NCBI GenBank assembly: GCA_019358835.1
Contig: JAHHIH010000002.1
Location: forward strand, 248,001 to 312,000
Reading direction: 5' to 3'
Origin: Tildeniella torsiva UHER 1998/13D
Lineage (GTDB): Bacteria; Cyanobacteriota; Cyanobacteriia; Phormidesmidales; Phormidesmidaceae
DNA: 64,000 bases
The translations under genes and the position numbers were made by a program. Under the pieces are notes generated by a model that ran no database searches, had not been told where the DNA came from, and worked only from the letters and a program-made list of their open reading frames with translations. Below, one piece after another: positions 29-10,179 of the stretch. Positions within the stretch are counted from its first letter, which is position 1. Every line of letters begins with the position of its first letter.

Positions 29-1348
29 TTAGAGGCGAGAGGCGGTGGCCTTGGGCACTTCAGCGGGCGGGGGTATGGCTGCTGGAGCCTGAAGGCAGGC
101 TTTTACAACTTCAAAATAGCGGTGGGTGCCCTGTTCGGGGGTAAATTTTTGCTGCATGTAGCGGCGACCTCGATTGCCCATCTGATGAACGAGGGCTGGG
201 TCGGCTACCAAGGTGCGAATAAAATTGGCTAACCCCGCGCCGTCGCCGTTGCTAAAGGCGCGGCCAAATCCACCTTCGGCCAGCAGCGATCGCAGGTAGG
301 AATGGGGCTCGCAGATAGCCGCCACCGGACGGCCCGCCGCTAGGCTACCGTACAGTTTGCTGGGGGCTACCAGCCCCTCCACACCTTCTACCAGGCTCAC
401 TAAGCTGAGGTCGCAGGCGGTGAGAGAAAAGGGCAGGGTGTCTTTTGGCTGGTAGGGCAAAAATAGGCAGTTAGTGAGCGCTGCGCGGGCGGTGTGGTCG
501 ATACAAAATTGGCGTTTAGCCCCGGCCCCAATGAACACAAACTGTACGGGCTCGTGGCGCAGCGCTGTGGCTGCCGCCAAAATGGTGTCCATGTCGTGGC
601 AGCGCCCCATGTTGCCGGAATAGAGCACCGTAAAGACTTGATCGAGGTGATGGTGTAGCGCGAACCAGTTGTCGGTTTTAGGTCGGGGAACAATCAGGCT
701 TGGGTCGGCCCAGTTGTGGATTACTGATATTTTGTCGGCGGCTTCGGGGCAGTGGTCAACAATGCGCTGCTTCATGGTTTGGCTCAGCACCACAATGGCA
801 TCGGCCTGGCACCAGGTGCGGCAGTTAAGCCAGCGCCAGAGGCGCACGAGCCAGTGATGCTTTGAGACGACCCCCAGGGCGACGGCCACTTCGGGGTACA
901 GGTCGTACACCACGCACAGGTAGGACTGGCCAAAGAGACAGTGCATGAGGTAGGCCAGCACCGGCAGGTAGGGAGGCTCGGTGGTGACGAGCAAAAGCTG
1001 GCCGCGACGGGCCGGGTGCAACAGCTTAATGAGCGATCGCAAGCAGTAGAGCAACCCCCCTATCGCTCGACCCCGAATTCTCTGGGGCCACAGGCGCGAG
1101 GTGCGTGTGCGGCGGATTGTGACCCCCCGCACCTTCTCCTGCTTGGCGGCTAGCCTGCGATCGTAGGCGTAGCCGGGCTGCCCCGCAAACACCTGTACAC
1201 CAACTCCCCGCTGACTAAAGCTCTGGGCTAGTTCTTCCACTAGCTGCCCCGTCGCCGCATAGTCAGGGGGAAAAAACTGAGTCAGAATCGAGACCTGCAA
1301 CGGGAGGCTAGGCGGGCCATGGTTTGCTCTCATTAGGGATCTACTCAT
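29..1348 (-). CDS. WbuB-like family 4 glycosyltransferase
   Basis: Probable cytoplasmic GT-B glycosyltransferase that adds a sugar to a lipid-linked exopolysaccharide or lipopolysaccharide intermediate. The N-terminal domain begins with the typical ILTQFFPPDYAATG segment. The mid-region has VVYDLYPEVAVALGV, characteristic of WbuB-type GT4 enzymes, and the C-terminal donor-binding half has YSGNMGR, VFIGAGA and the EGVEGLVAPSKLYGSLAAGRP stretch around the nucleotide-sugar site. The reading frame extends upstream to a TTG at 1384, but ATG codons at 1348 and 1333 are better candidates. The last 20 or so residues are Pro/Ala-rich and probably disordered. It lies downstream of the wza/wzc-like genes on the same strand but is separated from them by an AT-rich gap, so it may have its own promoter. 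The exact sugar cannot be read from sequence. Confidence 0.85.
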   Translation of the reverse strand: MSRSLMRANHGPPSLPLQVSILTQFFPPDYAATGQLVEELAQSFSQRGVGVQVFAGQPGYAYDRRLAAKQEKVRGVTIRRTRTSRLWPQRIRGRAIGGLLYCLRSLIKLLHPARRGQLLLVTTEPPYLPVLAYLMHCLFGQSYLCVVYDLYPEVAVALGVVSKHHWLVRLWRWLNCRTWCQADAIVVLSQTMKQRIVDHCPEAADKISVIHNWADPSLIVPRPKTDNWFALHHHLDQVFTVLYSGNMGRCHDMDTILAAATALRHEPVQFVFIGAGAKRQFCIDHTARAALTNCLFLPYQPKDTLPFSLTACDLSLVSLVEGVEGLVAPSKLYGSLAAGRPVAAICEPHSYLRSLLAEGGFGRAFSNGDGAGLANFIRTLVADPALVHQMGNRGRRYMQQKFTPEQGTHRYFEVVKACLQAPAAIPPPAEVPKATASRL

Positions 1349-2255
1349 GGGGAGATGCAGCACGGATAACAGCTCAATACTCAAATTCTGAGCCTCAGGA
1401 GCTTTGGGGATTAGGCGATGCAGAGTCTATAGGTTGAAAAACTCTATCGATTAGACGTGATATTGCCCCTAACTAGAGATTTAAGTATGTATTGAGAGCA
1501 ACATTTTTTAGCTGTTGCTAAAGTTAAAAATCTATTCTTTGCGTTCAGAGTATTCCCTAGATTTTAATAGGAGGGGCTGCAAAGATATTATTTTTTAACA
1601 GTTTATTCTATAGCTGCGCGTTTGGACTTTCTAGCTGCAAAATTGGCTTTGCACCTTTAGGGAAAATCTAGGGCAAATCAGCACTGTGTTTGTGGGCTCA
1701 GCCCCCAGCCCTATTGCACCAAGTCGCTATAGAAACCGTTTCTTAAGATGGTGCAAATACGGTTGAAGTGTTGCCAAGGGAAAGGCGTGAACCTTTTCGG
1801 AAACTATGTAAGCTGGAATCAAAGCTTCCTGAATCTATCTCAGGGATGATTTTCTTAATACCTTTTGAGATATGTCGCCCCCCTGGATTGATCGACTCAC
1901 TTGCAGGATGCTACATGTTGTTAGGCAGATTGCTGATACTCAGGTCTTCAAGATATCGGCAGACTTTGAACACAGGCTGCTGCCAATAGCTGCCAATAAA
2001 GTACGACAGATAAAGGCAGTCACCTTAGCAAAGAAAGATGTCAGTTAGACAGCACAAGTCAGGATATTAATCTGCTTTTTATTCTCTCAAACCCATTCAC
2101 TAATGCGATTCGAATTAATCGCATTAGTGAATGGGTACAGCTCTGTTTTGATGAAGTTTGGTTCGCTTAAATATTCCTTTCTAACTGAGCTTTACTCTTC
2201 TCAATTTTGGAGCGCGGTAGTAAACATTTTACTGGCGATTGATGAGTCTGAGACA
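1349..2255. other. AT-rich gap without a supported gene
   Basis: About 900 bases, clearly lower in GC than the neighbouring genes. Two short open frames on the plus strand (from 1768 and 2103) match no family I recognise and have no convincing ribosome binding site. The gap contains an inverted pair TTGCACCA/TGGTGCAA (about 1714-1785) and a perfect 20-bp inverted repeat at 2091-2136. It may be the remains of a mobile element or a regulatory region, but no transposase fragment could be read. Confidence 0.5.
2091..2136. repeat. Perfect 20-bp inverted repeat with 6-nt loop
   Basis: The left arm 2091-2110 (ACCCATTCACTAATGCGATT) is the exact reverse complement of the right arm 2117-2136, with CGAATT between them. 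The stem is only about 40 percent GC and no T-run follows on either strand, so it does not look like a standard intrinsic terminator. It lies in a gene-free AT-rich gap 120 bases beyond the stop codon of the secreted protein at 2256-3212. Confidence 0.9.
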
Positions 2256-3212
2256 CTAACTAACCACCTCAATGGCAGCCCGCAGCTGTTGCAGCGATCG
2301 CCCCAGGGCAACAAAATCTGAGTTTTCGCTCAGGGCCGCCAGTACTTCTGGGGTGCTGTTATCGACAATGCGGTTGTAGGCCTGGATGGCTTCCTCTAGC
2401 TGGGTGGGGTCGATGGCCAAGGCCGTAGCGCGAGGCGTGGGCTGGGGGGGGATCAGCCCGCTCACGGCGTTAAAGAGTGGCACTAGATCTTGGTAGGCAG
2501 CGCCAGCCAGAGCCATTTCGGTGAAGGGAGCCACCTGGCTGGGGGTGAGGCCAGTGGCAAAGGCGGCGGCTAAAAAGCCGACAGCATTGGCAATTTGAGC
2601 CAGGCTGCCCTGCAGCGGGGCCACCATCGGGGTGCCACCTGGGAGCGTAAACACCGCCGAGGTGACTAGGATAGAATCACTGCCGCTGGCTTGGGCAACG
2701 GTTGGGGCGGCAATGCCGAGGGTTCCCTGACTGCTGGTCAGCGAGACGCTTTCACCATTGGCGATCGCCGCCGCCGCCGCTGCCGCAATCTCATCCACTG
2801 TCTCGTCATCATCTTCGTCCTCGCTGACGCCGCTGGCACCTACGGGACTGGGGCTATTTAAGCTAATCTCCCCTGGGGTGGTCAACGCAGTGGCTAGGAC
2901 GGGGTTGGTGCCCTGGAGTCCCTGGACAACCTGGTTAGCCGAGGTGTTGAGCGCCTGCTGGGCGGCGGTAGTTAGGGTGATGTCGCCAGTGATGGGGTCT
3001 ACGGTGGCGTTGGCCGAGGCTGACTCCAGCAGCTCCTCGCTCCCTAGGGTTGAAGCCCCAATGGGCAATAGGTTTGACCCACCGACGTTAACGCCGCTGG
3101 TCAGCCCCGTGGGGACTGAACCACTGTGTCCAGGTAGGGCGATCGCCAAGCTCCCACCTACCAGAATTAGCATGAGCCATATTTGCCGCTGCGGGCGCGC
3201 CAGTTTGTCCAC
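2256..3212 (-). CDS. Secreted hypothetical protein
   Basis: Not a family I recognise. The protein of about 318 residues starts with a short basic segment and a hydrophobic stretch (IWLMLILVGGSLAIALPG), which looks like a signal peptide, so it is probably exported. The next 90 residues are Ser/Gly/Thr-rich, followed by an acidic run EDEDDDETVDE and an alanine stretch. The C-terminal 60 residues look helical. I chose the GTG start at 3212 because AGGAG lies seven bases upstream of it; the open frame extends to a TTG at 3230 that overlaps this ribosome binding site. It follows the beta-barrel protein gene by about 70 bases and is probably in the same operon as the Wzc/Wza-like genes, which suggests a role at the cell surface. 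Confidence 0.7.
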   Translation of the reverse strand: MDKLARPQRQIWLMLILVGGSLAIALPGHSGSVPTGLTSGVNVGGSNLLPIGASTLGSEELLESASANATVDPITGDITLTTAAQQALNTSANQVVQGLQGTNPVLATALTTPGEISLNSPSPVGASGVSEDEDDDETVDEIAAAAAAAIANGESVSLTSSQGTLGIAAPTVAQASGSDSILVTSAVFTLPGGTPMVAPLQGSLAQIANAVGFLAAAFATGLTPSQVAPFTEMALAGAAYQDLVPLFNAVSGLIPPQPTPRATALAIDPTQLEEAIQAYNRIVDNSTPEVLAALSENSDFVALGRSLQQLRAAIEVVS

Positions 3213-3219
3213 GGGTATT

Positions 3220-3224
3220 CTCCT
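3220..3224 (-). promoter_or_regulatory. Ribosome binding site deciding the GTG start at 3212
   Basis: Minus-strand AGGAG seven bases before GTG at 3212. This good Shine-Dalgarno match lies inside the longer open frame and argues against the TTG start at 3230. Confidence 0.65.
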
Positions 3225-3283
3225 AAACAAGATGATTGGGGTGCAGGTAACGTTGACAGGAGCGAGAAGAGGAAAAAAGAAGT

Positions 3284-5377
3284 TTAAAACCGAGGGCCGA
3301 AGTTGAATCCATAGCCAATGCTTAACACTGCGACGGAACCTGTCCGCGTATTGTTGCCGATGTCGCCGTAGAGCAAGTTGAGGGTAAGGGGCAGCGTGGA
3401 CACTGGCACAATGGAAGCCCCTACATTTAGACCCACTCCGCTCCAGGCGGTGTTGACAGAAAACTGTGGGTGCACCTGGAGCCCAACTCCGGCAATCACC
3501 CCCACATCGCTGCTCTCACCACTGAAGGAGCCGCCGCCCAAACCCAGCGATGCAGTAATCGGCAACCGGTTGCTGGGGTGGTCTGGCTGAAGCAGATGAG
3601 CCGCCGTGACCACGCCGTAGAGGCTAGACTCGCTGCCACCAGCGTTGGTGCCGTAGGACGCAAAATTATTCAGCCCCACGGCTGCGGCCACCTGGGTTTC
3701 GTCGCTGCTGTAGACCTGGCGATGGATCTTGGCATCGAAGCCGCCGTTTTCGCCAAACTGGCGCACGCTCTGGAGGTTGTAGGCTAGCTCAACCCCCACG
3801 GCCCGGCGCGAGTCGCCTAAACCAAAGCCCATCGAGAGACTGCCATCGGCCTCAGGGCGAATGCGATCGGCTCCAGCTAGCGAGGCGCTGAAAAACACAT
3901 CTCCCCAGTTGGCCCCAAAGGCCGAGGGAATGCCGGCATTGGGCGAGGGGGGAAAGGAGCGTGTAGCCTCAGCGACAGTCGTGAGCGGTGCGACGCGCAG
4001 ATCGTCGCGCAGCTGGGTTGCATCGGGGGACGATGGCGTGGCTCGAGCGGTGTTGACAGCGGGAACTGTATTTGCCGAGAGCGGGGCTGCGGACAGCTCT
4101 ACCGGCGGTAAGCTTAGGGCAACTTGACCCGTCGATAGGGTGGGCTGAGGCGTCGGCAAGGCTAGAGCGATGTTGGGGCTATGTTCGGCGAACGAGGGTA
4201 ATTGGGGGTTCCGCTCGGTCTGTCGAGCTACAGACGGGGAGGGCGGTGGGGCCGTTACGGGAATCGAGCTAGCGTTGGCGATGGTTTCAGCCGCGGCGAT
4301 GGAACGGTCAGCGGGACGGGCCTGGGTCGAGCGCGAGGGCAGCGGCGGTAGCTGTGGCCCCCGGCTTACGGTTTCAGGCTGAGAGACCTGTCGAGCAGGG
4401 TCGCTCGGGATCTCTAGGCCGTAGGTGGTGCGCAGGTCGCGCAGCAACGCTTGCACCGTCGTTGCCCGCGATCGCAGGGTGGCCATATCAACGGCGGCCT
4501 GGCGCGGGGCTGCTCCCGATGCCGCGACTCTGGCCGCTGGGGCAGGGCGATCAAGGGTGGCTGCTGGGGCAGGGAGGGGGGCGATCGCCAACGTTGAGGT
4601 GGCGGCTAGATCCTCTGATGCGGTGGGCTCTACCGCTGTGGAGATCGCGGAGCGAGGCTCTACCTCGGGTAGCTGAAGAGCCTGGGCTGGCTTGCTAGCT
4701 GCGGGTTTGGCGCTAACTTCACCAAAGGTCTCAGCTGGAGTAACGGTTGACGCTGTCTCAGTGCTGTTAACAATGTTCTCAGCAACTGTCGGAGGAGCAG
4801 TTATGCCGGAGGGCGGGCTGGCGATCGCAGCCTGGTCACTGGCTATTTCAGCTTGAGCGATCTCGGGCGTTGGCGTGGGGGCTACTGGCAGGTCAGCCAG
4901 GGTGTTGGCTGAGGTCTCTGGACTCACCAACGCGGGGCTTGGTGCGGCATCAGGGGCGATCGCGGTGGCCTCTGGCACTGCTACCGGTGCAGTTATGACG
5001 GCGGGTTCTACGATCTCTGGAACCCTGCTTTCTGCGGTAGCAGTGGCCGGAGCCGATAGCTCTGGCTGAGGAGTGACGACTGCTGCCGGTGCTGGCGGCT
5101 GGGCAGAGGCAGCAGCTGAGGCGACAAGGGGGCGATCGCCCTCGGGAGTCCAGGCGGGCTGGGGGCTTCCCTGTTCGTCGATCTGGGGTTCAGTGGTCTG
5201 AGCCGACGGCTCAGGCGCCACCACCGGGTGCGGATCTACAGCCAGAGCCGTGCCTAGACTGGGATCATGGGCTACAGCCAAATTGTCAGGGCTGGCCTCG
5301 GCCTGCGATGGCAGCAACCCGAGACCGGCTAGCCCCAACAGTCCGCCCGTAATCAGTGGTCTTGATTTGCGCTTCAT
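3284..5377 (-). CDS. Pro/Ala-rich secreted protein with C-terminal beta-barrel-like domain
   Basis: Not a named family that I recognise. The 697-residue protein has a signal peptide (MKRKSRPLITGGLLGLAGLGLLPSQAEA). A very long low-complexity region rich in Ala, Pro, Ser, Thr and Val (roughly residues 30-480) follows. The final 210 residues consist of alternating strand-like segments with glycines and aromatics (DVFFSASLAGADR, AVGVELAYNLQSV, TLNLLYGDIG) and end in GYGFNFGPRF. A terminal phenylalanine after such strands is typical of outer-membrane beta-barrel proteins. The start has a good GAGGAG site. It begins about 60 bases after the Wzc-like gene, so it probably belongs to the exopolysaccharide operon. 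I infer an outer-membrane protein with a long periplasmic linker; a role in polymer export or anchoring is possible but unproven. Confidence 0.75.
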   Translation of the reverse strand: MKRKSRPLITGGLLGLAGLGLLPSQAEASPDNLAVAHDPSLGTALAVDPHPVVAPEPSAQTTEPQIDEQGSPQPAWTPEGDRPLVASAAASAQPPAPAAVVTPQPELSAPATATAESRVPEIVEPAVITAPVAVPEATAIAPDAAPSPALVSPETSANTLADLPVAPTPTPEIAQAEIASDQAAIASPPSGITAPPTVAENIVNSTETASTVTPAETFGEVSAKPAASKPAQALQLPEVEPRSAISTAVEPTASEDLAATSTLAIAPLPAPAATLDRPAPAARVAASGAAPRQAAVDMATLRSRATTVQALLRDLRTTYGLEIPSDPARQVSQPETVSRGPQLPPLPSRSTQARPADRSIAAAETIANASSIPVTAPPPSPSVARQTERNPQLPSFAEHSPNIALALPTPQPTLSTGQVALSLPPVELSAAPLSANTVPAVNTARATPSSPDATQLRDDLRVAPLTTVAEATRSFPPSPNAGIPSAFGANWGDVFFSASLAGADRIRPEADGSLSMGFGLGDSRRAVGVELAYNLQSVRQFGENGGFDAKIHRQVYSSDETQVAAAVGLNNFASYGTNAGGSESSLYGVVTAAHLLQPDHPSNRLPITASLGLGGGSFSGESSDVGVIAGVGLQVHPQFSVNTAWSGVGLNVGASIVPVSTLPLTLNLLYGDIGNNTRTGSVAVLSIGYGFNFGPRF

Positions 5378-5440: not shown

Positions 5441-7738
5441 CTAACCGTCATTTATCCCTGCGACCACTCTGGGGCGACCGTAGTAGCCGTAGTAATAGTC
5501 GTAGCCACTCTGGCGGCTGTGGGGCACGCCGTTGACCACTAGACCCAGCAGCGGGGCCTGGGCTGTGGTGCCCAGGTCGGCCAGCACCCGCTGAATTTCT
5601 GAGCGCTCCGACCGATTTAGCCGCACCACTAGCAGCAGCCCATCGGCGTGGGCCGCAGTCAGCTTCGCGTCAACCATACCCCCCGCCAGGGGTGGGGTAT
5701 CAAAAATAATCAGGTCAAAATGACGGCGGTACTGCTCAGTAATTTGCTGCATTTTGCGCGATGACAGCAGCCGACCCGGAGCCGGGGGCCGCGCCCCTGC
5801 CGTCAGCAAGTGCAAGTTGGGATTGCCCGGTATCACCTGCACCAGATCCATCGGGTCATCGAGCGGTTGAGTGATCAGATCGCTCAACCCCTGGTGGTTA
5901 GGGTGGCCAAAAATCAGGTGCTGGCTGGGCTTGCGCAGATCGCCATCCACCAGCAGCACCCGGCGGCCCATGTTGGCGGCGGCAATGGCCAGATGGGCGC
6001 ACATGGTCGATTTCCCCTCGCCAGGCTCTGAGGAGGTCAGCGCTACCACCTGGATAGGGATATCAGAGCTGAGCATGCGCAGGTTGGCTTCCAGTGAGTA
6101 AAATGCCTCAGCGAAGCTGAAGGAGGTATAGAGCTTGTGGGGACTCTGGTTTTGGGTGAGCACATCGGCCATGGTGGCCGATAGGTTAGGCACCATCAGC
6201 AGGGGCTGCTTTTGCAGCGCCGGGGCATTGGGTACCCCAGCCAGGTTGGGCAACTGAGTTGCTTTGACCAGTTCGTCGGCGGTGTGGAAGGCTTGATCGA
6301 GGCGATCGCGCAGCAATGCCGCCACCCCTCCCAGCAGCAGGCTGATCACTGTGCTGAGCAGCAGCTTGCGGGGCAAATTGCTGGTTTGGGTAATACTCGA
6401 TTCATTCAAAGGCGAAATTAGCTCCCAGGGAGACGCCTGCCGCGCCATCTGAAACCTGAGGTCTTGGCGGCTAGTCAAGAGCTGATCGAGACTGCTCTCC
6501 GCTACGGTCAGCTCACGGCTAATCTGCTGAAACGATCGGGAGAGATCCGCCAGCCGCTGAATTTCGGCCCGCAGCTGCTGCACGGCCTGGCCAATCGCCT
6601 GATCCTGGGTTTGCAGCACCTGCATCTGGTTCGCGGTATCGACCAGCTGCTGCATCAGGTCGCGGCTTACCGATCCTTGATAGCCCAGGGTTTCGGCTTC
6701 TACCGCTGACCCCACCAGGCGCTGGGCTTCGGCCTCTAGCAGCGGCAACAACTGCTGACGCTGATCGCTCAGCGCCTCTATCATGGGGGTGTCGGCCTGA
6801 AACCGCGCTGACTCGGCGGCAATGGTCTGTTCGACCTCGCGTAAATCGCCCAGCAGCGCCTGGTAGGTTGGTGACTCATTCAGGTTCGCGACTCGAATGG
6901 CGGTATTGGGGTCAAAGCCCACCTGGGCCGTTAGATTTTCGTAGAGAGGATTTAGGGCCGTTAGCTGCACCCGCAGCTGTTCTTGGTCAGCCAGCATCTG
7001 GTTGAGTCGTTGGGTAACGCTTTCACTGGTCGCGTTGACATCGACCAGGTCATAGCGCTTCTGAAACTCGCTGAGGTCATCCTCAATGGCCGCAACTTCC
7101 TGCCATTTTTCCTGGAGCTGTTCATCTAAAAACGTCAGACCCCGCCGCAGATCCCCTTGACGATCTTGCACGCTGTAGTTGACAAACCCTTCAACCACCT
7201 GGGTGAGTACGAACGCCGCTACCGCTGGGTCGGTATTACTGTAGCTAATGCGCAGCACCTTAGATTCGCCTTCCTGGCTGATGGTCAGGCCGCTGAGCAG
7301 AGAGTTATAGGTAATGTTGGGGTAGCGCTGCTGAATATTGGCCAAAATTGGGTTGATCACCGCTGGGCCGCGCAGCACCCGAATTTGGCTGGTGTAATCG
7401 AGCCTGGAAACCGATGGGCTGGGCACCCCAGTGACTGCCTCCAGCCCCAGGGTGTTTACGGCGGTAACGGGCTCCACCAAAAGGCTGGCGCTGCCACTAT
7501 AGGCTGGCGGACGGCTCAGATACCAGAGGGTCAACCCTCCCAAAGAGAGGGCCGTCACCCCCAAAAAGACGCCCGCCCGCCGCTTAAAAACTCCTAGGAT
7601 CTGCCTGAAGTCAATCTCATCTTTCTGCTCCACCAGGGACGGCGGAGCCATGGCAGGGACAGAACTAGGTTTAGCAGGGCCATGACCGTTGCCGCTGCCA
7701 TTGGGCTCGTGAGAGGTGGAGGAGTGGGGGAAAGGCAT
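5441..7738 (-). CDS. Wzc-type polysaccharide co-polymerase with tyrosine kinase domain
   Basis: Inner-membrane protein that controls polymerisation and export of capsule or exopolysaccharide. The N-terminal Wzz-like part has a membrane segment near residue 60 (FLGVTALSLGGLTLWYL), followed by a large periplasmic region with coiled-coil stretches. A second membrane helix occurs near residue 465 (LLLSTVISLLLGGVAALL). The C-terminal BY-kinase domain has Walker A SSEPGEGKST (about 569-578), Walker A' LLVDGDLRK (about 596-604) and Walker B IIFDTPP (about 678-684). It ends with a tyrosine cluster YDYYYGYYG (about 748-756), the usual autophosphorylation tail. At 765 residues it is normal for fused Wzc proteins. 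The Wza-like gene lies just upstream on the same strand, as expected for a Wzx/Wzy-type export system, although no flippase or polymerase is in the window. Confidence 0.93.
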   Translation of the reverse strand: MPFPHSSTSHEPNGSGNGHGPAKPSSVPAMAPPSLVEQKDEIDFRQILGVFKRRAGVFLGVTALSLGGLTLWYLSRPPAYSGSASLLVEPVTAVNTLGLEAVTGVPSPSVSRLDYTSQIRVLRGPAVINPILANIQQRYPNITYNSLLSGLTISQEGESKVLRISYSNTDPAVAAFVLTQVVEGFVNYSVQDRQGDLRRGLTFLDEQLQEKWQEVAAIEDDLSEFQKRYDLVDVNATSESVTQRLNQMLADQEQLRVQLTALNPLYENLTAQVGFDPNTAIRVANLNESPTYQALLGDLREVEQTIAAESARFQADTPMIEALSDQRQQLLPLLEAEAQRLVGSAVEAETLGYQGSVSRDLMQQLVDTANQMQVLQTQDQAIGQAVQQLRAEIQRLADLSRSFQQISRELTVAESSLDQLLTSRQDLRFQMARQASPWELISPLNESSITQTSNLPRKLLLSTVISLLLGGVAALLRDRLDQAFHTADELVKATQLPNLAGVPNAPALQKQPLLMVPNLSATMADVLTQNQSPHKLYTSFSFAEAFYSLEANLRMLSSDIPIQVVALTSSEPGEGKSTMCAHLAIAAANMGRRVLLVDGDLRKPSQHLIFGHPNHQGLSDLITQPLDDPMDLVQVIPGNPNLHLLTAGARPPAPGRLLSSRKMQQITEQYRRHFDLIIFDTPPLAGGMVDAKLTAAHADGLLLVVRLNRSERSEIQRVLADLGTTAQAPLLGLVVNGVPHSRQSGYDYYYGYYGRPRVVAGINDG

Positions 7739-7878: not shown

Positions 7879-9018
7879 CTAAAAACCCAGCAGCCTTAAA
7901 ACAGTAGTCAACGACGTAAACGGACGTAGAAAGAGTCCTATGGTGTCACCGGCAGCGGCGGCAACATTGCGATCGACAATCACCACATCGTTAGGCCGCA
8001 AAATTGGGTTCGTAGTGTCGTTAGCGGCAGCGGCCAGATCGACATTCACCGTGCGTTGGTCAACGCTGCCGTCTGGGTTAAGTCTCACTAGCTCCACCGT
8101 AGAGCGTTGGGCCCGGCTGCTCTCAAACCCGCCAGCGGCCAAAATCGCCTGGTTTAGGGTGGCGTTGGCGGGCAGGGTGACGCCACCGGGGCTAGCTACC
8201 TCGCCCACTACCTGCACCGGCATTTCCTCGGGAGAAAAATTGGCGCTAGAAATGGCCACGGCCTCCTCGGGCAAAACTGCTATGGCCTGGGGAATCACAA
8301 TGGTATCGCCGTCCCGCAGACGCACATCTTGGCTGATGTCGCCCGTGCGAATTAAGTCCCACAGGCTGGTGGTGAGAATGGCCTCACCCTGGCGCTGGGG
8401 CCGCCGCACCTGAATCTCCTTGATATTGGCCTGCTGGGTAATGCCCCCGGCCGCCTGAATCACTTGAGTCAGGGTGGGCCACTGGCGGCCAACTCCGGCG
8501 CTGCTCCCGCTGGCCTCGGCTTCTAACTCAATGGTGTAGGTACCGGGGCGATTGACTTCGCCAGCCACCACCACCCGCACTGGGCGAGCCGATAGCAGCG
8601 TGACAGTGAGCTGGGGCGGGCGGGTCAGCAACGGAGCATAGCTAGCGACTAGAGCCGCCTGGGTTTCGGCTAAGGTCAGCCCCTGCACGGCTACTACCCC
8701 GGCCATAGGCAGAGACAAGGTGCCATCGACCAGCACCTCGTGAATGCCGTTTTCGGGGCCGCTGAACTCTGGAATGTTGAAAATGTCGATGCGGATGCGA
8801 TCGCCTGGCCCCAGTACGTAGGCTTCGGGGAAGCCTGCCTCAGCGCTGCCGACATCAGACCCTCGTGGGCCTAAAATTCTTGGGATTGGGGCTGCGTCGG
8901 CCTCTGCTGGGTTGTTGAGGGGCAAGGCTTCTGCCCTGGTTGCCCCAGGTATACCGCTCAGGGTAGCGGCGGCTATTAGCACCCCTAATCCCCAGTCCAT
9001 CGGTCGAAAGCGGGTCAT
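7879..9018 (-). CDS. Wza-like polysaccharide export protein
   Basis: Predicted periplasmic/outer-membrane component that carries exopolysaccharide out of the cell. After a signal peptide (LGVLIAAATLSGIPGATRAEA) there is a poly-export domain beginning YVLGPGDRIRIDIFNIPEFSG (about residues 67-87). Two SLBB-type segments follow, the first around VVVAGEVNRPGTYTIE and the second around VQVVGEVASPGGVTLPA. At 379 residues it matches the length of cyanobacterial Wza homologues. No lipobox cysteine is visible at the signal cleavage site, unlike E. coli Wza, which is common in cyanobacteria. The ATG at 9018 is preceded by GAGGAGG. It is followed after 140 bases by the Wzc-like gene, and the two likely form one transcription unit. 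Confidence 0.92.
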   Translation of the reverse strand: MTRFRPMDWGLGVLIAAATLSGIPGATRAEALPLNNPAEADAAPIPRILGPRGSDVGSAEAGFPEAYVLGPGDRIRIDIFNIPEFSGPENGIHEVLVDGTLSLPMAGVVAVQGLTLAETQAALVASYAPLLTRPPQLTVTLLSARPVRVVVAGEVNRPGTYTIELEAEASGSSAGVGRQWPTLTQVIQAAGGITQQANIKEIQVRRPQRQGEAILTTSLWDLIRTGDISQDVRLRDGDTIVIPQAIAVLPEEAVAISSANFSPEEMPVQVVGEVASPGGVTLPANATLNQAILAAGGFESSRAQRSTVELVRLNPDGSVDQRTVNVDLAAAANDTTNPILRPNDVVIVDRNVAAAAGDTIGLFLRPFTSLTTVLRLLGF

Positions 9019-9179: not shown

Positions 9180-9962
9180 CTACTGATTGCCTGGGATCGA
9201 ACTGGCCCCGGAGATGGCATTGGCCTGAAGCTCCCGCTGCACCTGCTCGGTCAGCCAGGTGTTAAACAGCTCGTCAACCAAACGCTGGCGCGTGGCGTCA
9301 TCCAGGCGGGCCGGCAAAAACTTCTCCAGGCGCACCACCACGAACCATTCACCGACGCGAGTTGGGGGCCAGAGCTGTTCAGGTTGGCTCATGGAGAGAA
9401 TCCGGGCCAGGGCCGGGTGGGGTACCGATAGCTCTACGGGGCCGATCAGGCCGCCGGTTTGGGCCTCTTGCCCTTCGGAATACTGGCGGGCTAGGTCGGC
9501 CAAGGGTTGACCGTCGTCTTTGATGCGAAAGTAAAGCTCCTGGGCTAGGCCCGCATCGCGGGTGCGAATCAGGGAGTACAGCACCCGATCGAGGTGGGCC
9601 TTGCGCTGCAAAAAGTGAGATTCGACCTGGTGGCCCCAGGTGTCGAGTTTATACTGCTGAAGCTTTTGAGCCCGCTGGGCCAAGACCGGAAGATCGCCTG
9701 CGCTCAGCCCCCGCTGGGCTAAAAACCCCTGCTGCTGCTCGGGAGATGCTATCTGGTTGGCCTGCAAAAACTGCTCTAGGGCCAAGGCGTTCTGCTCTGG
9801 GGTGAGGGTAACGGCGGCGATCGCGCGATCGATCACCAATTCTTTGAGCAGGGCGGGCAGCATGCCGTAGCGCTGTAGCAAAGGCACAACGTCGGTGGCC
9901 GCCAGAAATTGGTCGCCGATGTGCAGCACTGGACTGGGCTCTGGATTAGACGGACTGTTCAC
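9180..9962 (-). CDS. Parvulin/SurA-like peptidylprolyl isomerase
   Basis: Probable peptidyl-prolyl cis-trans isomerase that helps fold exported proteins. The N-terminal half is helical and SurA-like (ALLKELVIDRAIAAVTLT, with alternating Glu/Gln-rich helices). The C-terminal rotamase-like part includes LADLARQYSEGQEAQTGGL and later VGEWFVVVRLEKFLPARLD, the classic parvulin core pattern. At about 260 residues it matches the cyanobacterial family often found beside type I secretion genes. No signal peptide is evident, so it could act in the cytoplasm or at the membrane. The open frame reaches a TTG at 9968, but a GTG at 9962 is the more likely start. It precedes the exopolysaccharide genes on the same strand with a 160-base gap, so cotranscription is possible. 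Confidence 0.82.
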   Translation of the reverse strand: MNSPSNPEPSPVLHIGDQFLAATDVVPLLQRYGMLPALLKELVIDRAIAAVTLTPEQNALALEQFLQANQIASPEQQQGFLAQRGLSAGDLPVLAQRAQKLQQYKLDTWGHQVESHFLQRKAHLDRVLYSLIRTRDAGLAQELYFRIKDDGQPLADLARQYSEGQEAQTGGLIGPVELSVPHPALARILSMSQPEQLWPPTRVGEWFVVVRLEKFLPARLDDATRQRLVDELFNTWLTEQVQRELQANAISGASSIPGNQ

Positions 9963-10179
9963 AGACAAAAGCGCTGGCCAACCACTTAGCCCAACCTTAT
10001 CGCATTATGTCGGGTCATTCTCGGTAGATAATCCGCTTGATGGTCAGGTTTAGCCAAATTTGGGACGGCTCGCTGCCGCTGTTACTTAAGCGCAGGAACG
10101 ACGCGGCGAGCCGGGCCTTGGCAGTTGACTGGGCTGCTACAATCCAGCCAACCTGTTTTATTGTCCCAAGGATCACCCC

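Follow-up and report, generated by a model that had tools for sequence, protein, structure and literature searches.

FapF is a 12-strand outer-membrane barrel that has an exported N-terminal extension with a disordered linker and an exported protein encoded nearby (PMC5557850), and the Fap system is reported only in Proteobacteria, although FapF profiles match a larger family (PMC3792158). GfcD/YjbH of the group 4 capsule loci adjoin capsule export of the OPX/PCP type and have a FapF-like N-terminal half, and the authors suggest that an amyloid-type protein is exported beside the polysaccharide (PMC9603273). SLH also occurs with barrels, in cyanobacterial SLH/OprB porins (PMC9705863) and OmpM (PMC10628300). 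Here we describe a barrel gene and its downstream partner gene in a 64,000-nucleotide stretch of Tildeniella torsiva UHER 1998/13D contig JAHHIH010000002.1 (the window), from a cyanobacterium in the Nodosilinea group whose closest named record is Nodosilinea sp. FACHB-131, with a barrel domain 94% identical.

The first protein of the pair has a predicted 12-strand barrel behind a long exported N-terminal arm, and the second is an exported protein that is inherited with it. The likeness to FapF lies in the strand number (predicted here), the exported extension with a linker that is probably disordered, and the exported protein encoded nearby. GfcD/YjbH resemble the window protein in adjoining OPX/PCP export and are set apart by their description as double barrels with a PgaA-like half (PMC9603273); the 16–18 strands of PgaA-like porins are not seen in the window barrel, which is modelled with 12. 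This pair is not described in the excerpted open literature on FapF, Wza/Wzc or SLH barrels, amyloids, exopolysaccharide export or GfcD/YjbH in cyanobacteria, the word barrel does not occur in the main text of PMC4594306 on cyanobacterial exopolysaccharide export, and literature on Nodosilinea yielded nothing on the pair.

The barrel protein and its N-terminal arm

The two genes and the parts of the first protein are as follows.

3284 to 5377, minus strand: barrel gene, 697 residues, with a signal peptide, an Ala/Pro-rich linker and a predicted C-terminal 12-strand barrel (open reading frame and AlphaFold2 model)
5294 to 5377, minus strand: signal peptide, residues 1–28, read by eye as MKRKSRPLITGGLLGLAGLGLLPSQAEA, with cleavage after ...AEA also judged by eye
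3968 to 5293, minus strand: Ala/Pro-rich linker, residues 29–470, mostly poorly conserved
4388 to 4492, minus strand: segment within the linker, about residues 296–330, MATLRSRATTVQALLRDLRTTYGLEI..., with block 301–315 conserved at 80% and block 316–330 at 55%
3287 to 3979, minus strand: modelled C-terminal domain, residues 467–697, a pre-barrel segment PS..GIP.AFGA.WGDVF and then 12 strands
2256 to 3212, minus strand: partner gene, 318 residues, exported, GTG start, confident alpha/beta fold predicted

AlphaFold2 models residues 467–697, from a 48-row alignment, as a 12-stranded beta-barrel with a mean predicted local distance difference test score (pLDDT) of 90.4 and a predicted template-modelling score (pTM) of 0.86, and most strands of the model alternate hydrophobic and polar residues, the exception being strand 119–129. 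We regard the predicted barrel fold as well supported; the original prediction had anticipated a barrel at this end of the protein, as modelled, but one of eight to ten strands, which we reject in view of the 12 in the model. Its general outline of a signal peptide, a Pro/Ala-rich linker (442 residues, of which 91 are Ala and 71 Pro, together 37%) and a strand-rich end with a final Phe holds, and the proposed barrel of the outer membrane, preceded by a long exported arm, is supported. A beta-signal-like C-terminus, scored by a loose pattern of our own, is present in 70 of 87 barrel copies versus 64 of 1088 other open reading frames (ORFs), and 63 of the 87 end in F, W or Y, as do 97 of the 1088. 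By a crude test with our own script, a signal-like hydrophobic N-terminus is found in 80/87 barrels and 81/84 partners, compared with 365/1088 other ORFs. Nine loci duplicate others (eight are the same place twice and one, L058, is from a near-identical genome); the duplicates were removed for barrels and partners in the signal test, the tree and the co-inheritance comparison and for barrels in the beta-signal test, and were kept in the neighbour counts and among the other ORFs.

The architecture goes beyond what chance would give. Conservation across the window protein and 10 Nodosilinea-group relatives is uneven, as 15-residue blocks from residue 466 onward are 75–94% conserved, blocks 1–15 and 16–30 stand at 92% and 82%, and 22 of the 29 linker blocks (residues 31–465) are at 62% or less. 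The segment around residues 296–330 is possibly helical. In most of the named loci a short LRxxLxIxP-like motif and a P...G.P.AFGA.WG-like segment can be recognised by eye ahead of the barrel, the motif being indistinct in Chamaesiphon rows and others. The protein had been called unrecognised, and indeed no curated family covers the barrel: Pfam gives only weak matches to OMP_b-brl (4 of 25 members, best E 2.6e-5) and YadA_anchor (2/25) and matches in single members, NCBIfam gives none better than E 0.12, and a barrel profile run against PDB sequences finds no relative, the best match (E 0.67) being an unrelated protein.

Structural comparison with VIA-align places FapF (5o65) at the top, with Z 18.0, a root-mean-square deviation of 3.0 and 202 aligned residues spanning model residues 6 to 227, followed by KdgM (16.9), COG4313 (16.4), AIDA-I (15.8), NalP (15.6) and NanC (15.3). 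Within the pre-barrel segment the FapF alignment sets in before those of the autotransporters (from residues 16–24) and KdgM (from 26). In the model, pre-barrel residues 11–30 are predicted with high confidence, contain no helix and align with FapF from FapF residue 88 onward. Foldseek recovers 13 FapF chains within its first 50, at a template-modelling score of about 0.5. The top rank of FapF is suggestive but not decisive, because rows 1–5 of the VIA-align ranking differ by less than 2 in Z.

The partner gene and its co-inheritance with the barrel

The constant companion of the barrel is the next gene, rather than wza or wzc, a relationship that the original prediction overlooked. Among 97 barrel copies (92 loci), 93 are followed by a gene on the same strand within 500 bases; three of the others are at contig ends and one has its neighbour on the opposite strand. 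An iterated profile, seeded with the 32 sequences of the cluster to which the window partner belongs (29 of these stand beside a barrel), adds 53 further barrel neighbours, giving 82 of the 93 altogether. In its last round the profile matches 81/93 neighbours versus 6/1088 other ORFs, counts that include the 32 seeds and come from a profile grown only on barrel-adjacent genes; three of the six are themselves seeds, and five of the six occupy the second or third position downstream of a barrel. In random windows it matches one of 703 ORFs, at E 1.2e-4. We regard the pairing as well supported.

Seven genomes carry two modules (L088, L101, L106, G071, G049 and two Chamaesiphon metagenome-assembled genomes (MAGs), with a third copy in G049 that lies outside the data set). 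In each of the 14 modules the partner is closest to a partner from another genome whose barrel is a close relative of its own barrel, and it matches the second partner of its own genome far more weakly or not at all. More generally, the best partner match falls within the top five barrel matches in 75 of the 76 modules having matches (of 84), some of these comparisons being between close species. Each partner thus tracks its own barrel, from which it follows that the pair is inherited, and diverges, as a unit. Judged from these sequences, such co-inheritance says that barrel and partner probably work together, but not how. In a phylogenetic profile, matches to the partner profile occur in 24 of 44 barrel-bearing relatives and in one of 52 barrel-lacking relatives (at E 8.4e-4); the 20 barrel-bearing relatives with no match are not to be read as absences, because the alignment behind the profile omits several partner subfamilies.

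The partner itself is modelled, from a 42-row alignment, with a confident alpha/beta fold (mean pLDDT 82.2, pTM 0.78), in which 209 of 318 residues reach a pLDDT of 90 or more and only residues 1–4, 17–50 and 52–56 fall below 50. Its length is 318 residues from the GTG and would be 324 from an upstream TTG (3230). It had been described as an exported low-complexity protein; the export signal is borne out by the signal-like N-termini of the partners, the low complexity is not, and the candidate of a low-complexity or repeat amyloid protein was rejected, given the confident predicted fold and the lack of any Fap-like family. Searches of the PDB with the predicted fold gave nothing convincing (Foldseek best E 0.21; VIA-align best Z 5.2 over 56 residues), which does not prove that the fold is new, and the partner profile's best match among PDB sequences (E 0.011) is a designed protein that we take as chance. 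No Pfam family matches partners better than E 0.006 and no NCBIfam family better than 0.0025, each in single members except for TrbC in two.

Several arrangements at individual loci were also observed. Proteins with RTX calcium-binding repeats directly follow the barrel, instead of or before the usual partner, at L083:11178-15047 (Anabaenopsis) and L042:8566-9432 (G062), and in L042 a partner-like gene is second after the barrel, behind the RTX-repeat protein. In one subclade (L049–L060) the partner is followed on the same strand by a third gene, which encodes about 215 residues and has a sub-threshold DUF4114 match (L057:10774-11418, for example). L101, L106 and L088 have two barrel-partner modules near each other on one contig, with distinct partners, and L070 runs barrel-partner-barrel to the contig end. 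In G019 a partner-like gene (L137:519-1298, profile E 1.9e-16) lies on another contig than the divergent barrel of that genome.

Distribution and genomic context

The barrel domain is present in 44 of 96 relatives and in 142 of 388 genomes of the class, over a third, a count to which family f2 contributes 13 genomes, 11 of which match weakly (at E 5e-21 or weaker). Genomes mostly have one or two copies and at most four, and none is found in the plasmid collection searched. A genome contig collection yields 64 loci, three of them (L124, L126 and L127) from Gemmatimonadota MAGs, which could be the result of transfer or of mis-binning; L124 has a Gly-rich partner-like gene. A quick tree of 87 copies, midpoint-rooted and with long branches flagged, divides into two sides with 99% support in the SH-aLRT (Shimodaira–Hasegawa-like approximate likelihood ratio test), one of 41 rows, 26 of which have an SLH motif, and the other of 46 rows with none, among which the window protein falls. 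By Pfam, SLH is found in 17 of 46 full-length members (best E 3e-33), in the N-terminal part where the window protein has its linker, and not in the window protein; neither OprB nor any other family besides SLH is matched in the 46 at E up to 0.01.

In the window the minus-strand order is a PpiC-type gene (9180–9968), wza, wzc, the barrel gene, the partner gene and a GT4 gene, with the neighbouring features listed here.

7879 to 9018, minus strand: Wza/OPX protein with Poly_export and SLBB domains
5441 to 7738, minus strand: Wzc-like polysaccharide co-polymerase, 765 residues, directly upstream of the barrel gene
29 to 1384, minus strand: GT4 glycosyltransferase, the next gene after the pair
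2091 to 2136, no strand assigned: perfect 20-bp inverted repeat with a 6-bp loop, downstream of the partner gene

The tandem arrangement of wzc, barrel and partner genes was given correctly from the start in coordinates, strands and sizes, and the gaps of about 60–70 bases are 63 and 71. The product of 5441–7738 is called Wzc-like by its ATPase domain, its Wzz match being below the cut-off. Wza was rightly said to be without a lipobox, as its signal region contains no cysteine, and no Wza_C domain is found by Pfam at E up to 10, which makes it apparently Class 3-like by a test that is weaker than the HHpred test used in PMC9603273. The inverted repeat has no second copy in the genome with up to one mismatch allowed and is not trailed by a long run of T; it is a candidate for the end of the transcription unit. 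Past the window edge there is a 141-residue protein and then genes that by eye correspond to an ABC-2 transporter and a Wzt-type ATPase (Wzm/Wzt-like; these families were assigned on the homologous genes of locus L072), and further out are genes that by eye resemble sugar and methyl transferases.

The barrel gene directly follows wzc in 13 of the 14 Nodosilinea-group loci with flanks, the exception (L040, G019) being a divergent copy. Nodosilinea nodulosa PCC 7104 (L076) is among the strains that have the locus. In G023, where wzc is present at 79% and the barrel appears to be missing, an assembly edge is responsible: the contig breaks off within the barrel gene after its start. G002, G005, G006, G010, G015, G021 and G024, several of which are incomplete genomes, have neither a barrel nor a close wzc (no match above 41% identity). 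Outside the genus we formed 22 groups of barrels at 65% identity, each judged by its longest locus of 15 kb or more, and found wza or wzc in four, any export marker in six and any polysaccharide marker in 11, as compared with 0, 0 and 3 of 40 random 20-kb windows; the marker profiles were trained on the test loci and so favour these over the controls, which come from 10 barrel-bearing genomes only. Judging each group by its longest locus concealed wza or wzc in three of them (members L060, L107 and L120), and with any member counted the figure is 7 of 27 groups. In the window's own clade beyond the Nodosilinea group, wzc is present in 1 of 32 loci (L107) and wza in none of the 32, which suggests recruitment in Nodosilinea. 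The barrel module is enriched at polysaccharide loci, yet most lineages do without. The expected conservation beside wzc and wza is typical of Nodosilinea but not general elsewhere. Because wzc upstream is typical of Nodosilinea and rare in the rest of the clade, the barrel is no general Wza partner, and we rejected the candidate of a general Wza/Wzc component, having found either gene in so few outside groups.

Possible roles in export, anchoring or polysaccharide passage

The explanation that we favour, tentatively and as possible rather than probable, is that the barrel is a plugged channel in the outer membrane, with an arm in the periplasm, which serves to export or anchor the partner and has been recruited into a polysaccharide operon. 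The two genes would together be an autonomous module of the outer membrane that arose before it came to lie in this operon. The first protein would be a 12-strand barrel of the outer membrane, and the ordered segment before its first strand probably plugs or gates the pore, as the overlay on the plugged form of FapF (PMC5557850) suggests. Its long arm, which is Ala/Pro-rich and probably disordered here and often has an SLH domain in the sister clade, would be periplasmic, given that in porins of cyanobacteria SLH is reported to link to components of the cell wall (PMC9705863). The second protein would be its dedicated exported partner, which the barrel most likely moves through the outer membrane or holds at the surface, as FapF does with Fap subunits, and which would thereby join the extracellular sheath. 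In Nodosilinea the pair would have been taken into a polysaccharide operon of the wza-wzc/ABC type, by which protein and polysaccharide would be exported together. Computation supports the predicted barrel, the signal-bearing partner, their pairing and co-inheritance and the operon context, whereas the plugged pore, the periplasmic side of the arm, export of the partner and a link to the sheath are inferences. A more ambitious version is doubtful: that this is a two-gene export system widespread in cyanobacteria, in which a gated 12-strand barrel with a wall-reaching arm lets through or displays one cognate protein whose fold has no clear counterpart in solved structures, whose paralogous modules keep their own pairing within one cell and which in Nodosilinea is built into a polysaccharide exporter such that protein and polysaccharide are laid down together.

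Several observations weigh against export or anchoring of the partner by a FapF-like channel. KdgM, COG4313 and the autotransporters (Z 15–16) are nearly as close to the model as FapF, the alignments of COG4313, FadL and Omp33 also enter the pre-barrel segment (from residues 12, 11 and 5), the first Foldseek chain is NanC (E 1.4e-5), and sharing a fold of 12 strands is no evidence of function. A barrel profile run against PDB sequences detects no FapF at E up to 10, no profile–profile comparison with FapF having been made, and the model has no helix ahead of the barrel, unlike the 13-residue plug helix of FapF (PMC5557850). The six genes of the window that were scanned (GT4, partner, barrel, Wzc, Wza and PpiC) include no FapD-like protease and no member of a Fap-type family. 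The partner differs from a repeat amyloid in being predicted to fold, and export would then need an unfolded state, or else the partner stays periplasmic; nothing in these sequence-based results indicates on which side of the membrane it would finally lie. In addition, 11 of the 93 neighbours are not reached by the partner profile, and although some of these (for example L038_8 and L051_6) look by eye like the usual partner, others are exported or surface-type proteins of another sort.

The main competitor holds that the barrel is a polysaccharide pore replacing the missing membrane-spanning part of Wza, with the partner as a periplasmic accessory. The fold is closely matched by that of the 12-strand sugar porin KdgM, and the gene's place directly after wzc in Nodosilinea and the excess of polysaccharide markers in the outside groups argue in the same direction. 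So does the likeness to Myxococcus, in which Class 3 OPX proteins pair with outer-membrane barrels, as a barrel gene here stands beside a Wza with no Wza_C detected, but the Myxococcus pores have 18 strands and are PgaA-like (PMC9603273), whereas the window barrel has 12 and its relatives are mostly away from wza outside one genus. The genome has five Poly_export proteins and one barrel, 20 of the 27 outside groups show neither wza nor wzc in any fetched locus (some loci being short), and the constant companion is the partner gene. We therefore consider a polysaccharide pore unlikely, on the strength of the strand number, the five Poly_export proteins to one barrel and the presence of the pair elsewhere without wza; the last two points also tell against the earlier suggestion of a general outer-membrane partner for Wza. 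KdgM and NanC resemble the window protein in strand number and fold but differ in that there is no Pfam sequence match and in its long N-terminal arm and dedicated partner.

A cell-wall-anchored porin or outer-membrane tether of the SLH-porin/OmpM type, with the partner as periplasmic regulator or stabiliser, would account for SLH in the sister clade, for a partner that is predicted to be folded and for copies that by eye lie amid housekeeping-type genes (L042, L085 and L094). The combination of SLH and barrel is shared with the SLH/OprB porins (PMC9705863) and OmpM (PMC10628300), but the window's whole clade is without the SLH motif, the family has no match to OprB or another porin family, its barrel has 12 strands and an exported partner is encoded with it. 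The few copies per genome and the presence in only 142 of 388 genomes are unlike a general tether. We know of no dedicated partner as a feature of SLH-porins, and altogether this explanation seems rather improbable to us. Least credible, and in our view quite improbable, is an autotransporter that uses its C-terminal barrel to bring its own N-terminal part to the cell surface. The order of signal peptide, long N-terminal part and predicted 12-strand barrel with a final Phe would fit type Va autotransporters, and the barrels of AIDA-I, NalP and EstA match at Z 14.8–15.8; however, the model has no helix before the barrel, Pfam finds no Autotransporter beta-domain in the window protein or the family members scanned and YadA_anchor only weakly, relatives have in their N-terminal part an SLH of the kind that links cyanobacterial porins to the cell wall (PMC9705863), and the partner is left unexplained. 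Of the earlier proposal of a new export or anchoring component, the anchoring side fits the SLH domains of the sister clade, and a general role with Wza is not supported.

To our knowledge, the passage of proteins across the cyanobacterial outer membrane, and the deposition of sheath proteins together with polysaccharide, are largely open questions. A barrel in 142 of 388 genomes of the class, usually with a co-inherited exported partner at the loci examined, is a small, concrete and testable candidate. If the barrel does export its partner, the few channels dedicated to protein passage through the outer membrane would gain a two-gene system, one that is relevant to the idea put forward in PMC9603273 of FapF-like barrels through which a matrix protein joins polysaccharide export. 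Failing that, the two genes would still represent an unnamed family of arm-bearing, often SLH-bearing outer-membrane proteins together with a partner of unmatched fold.

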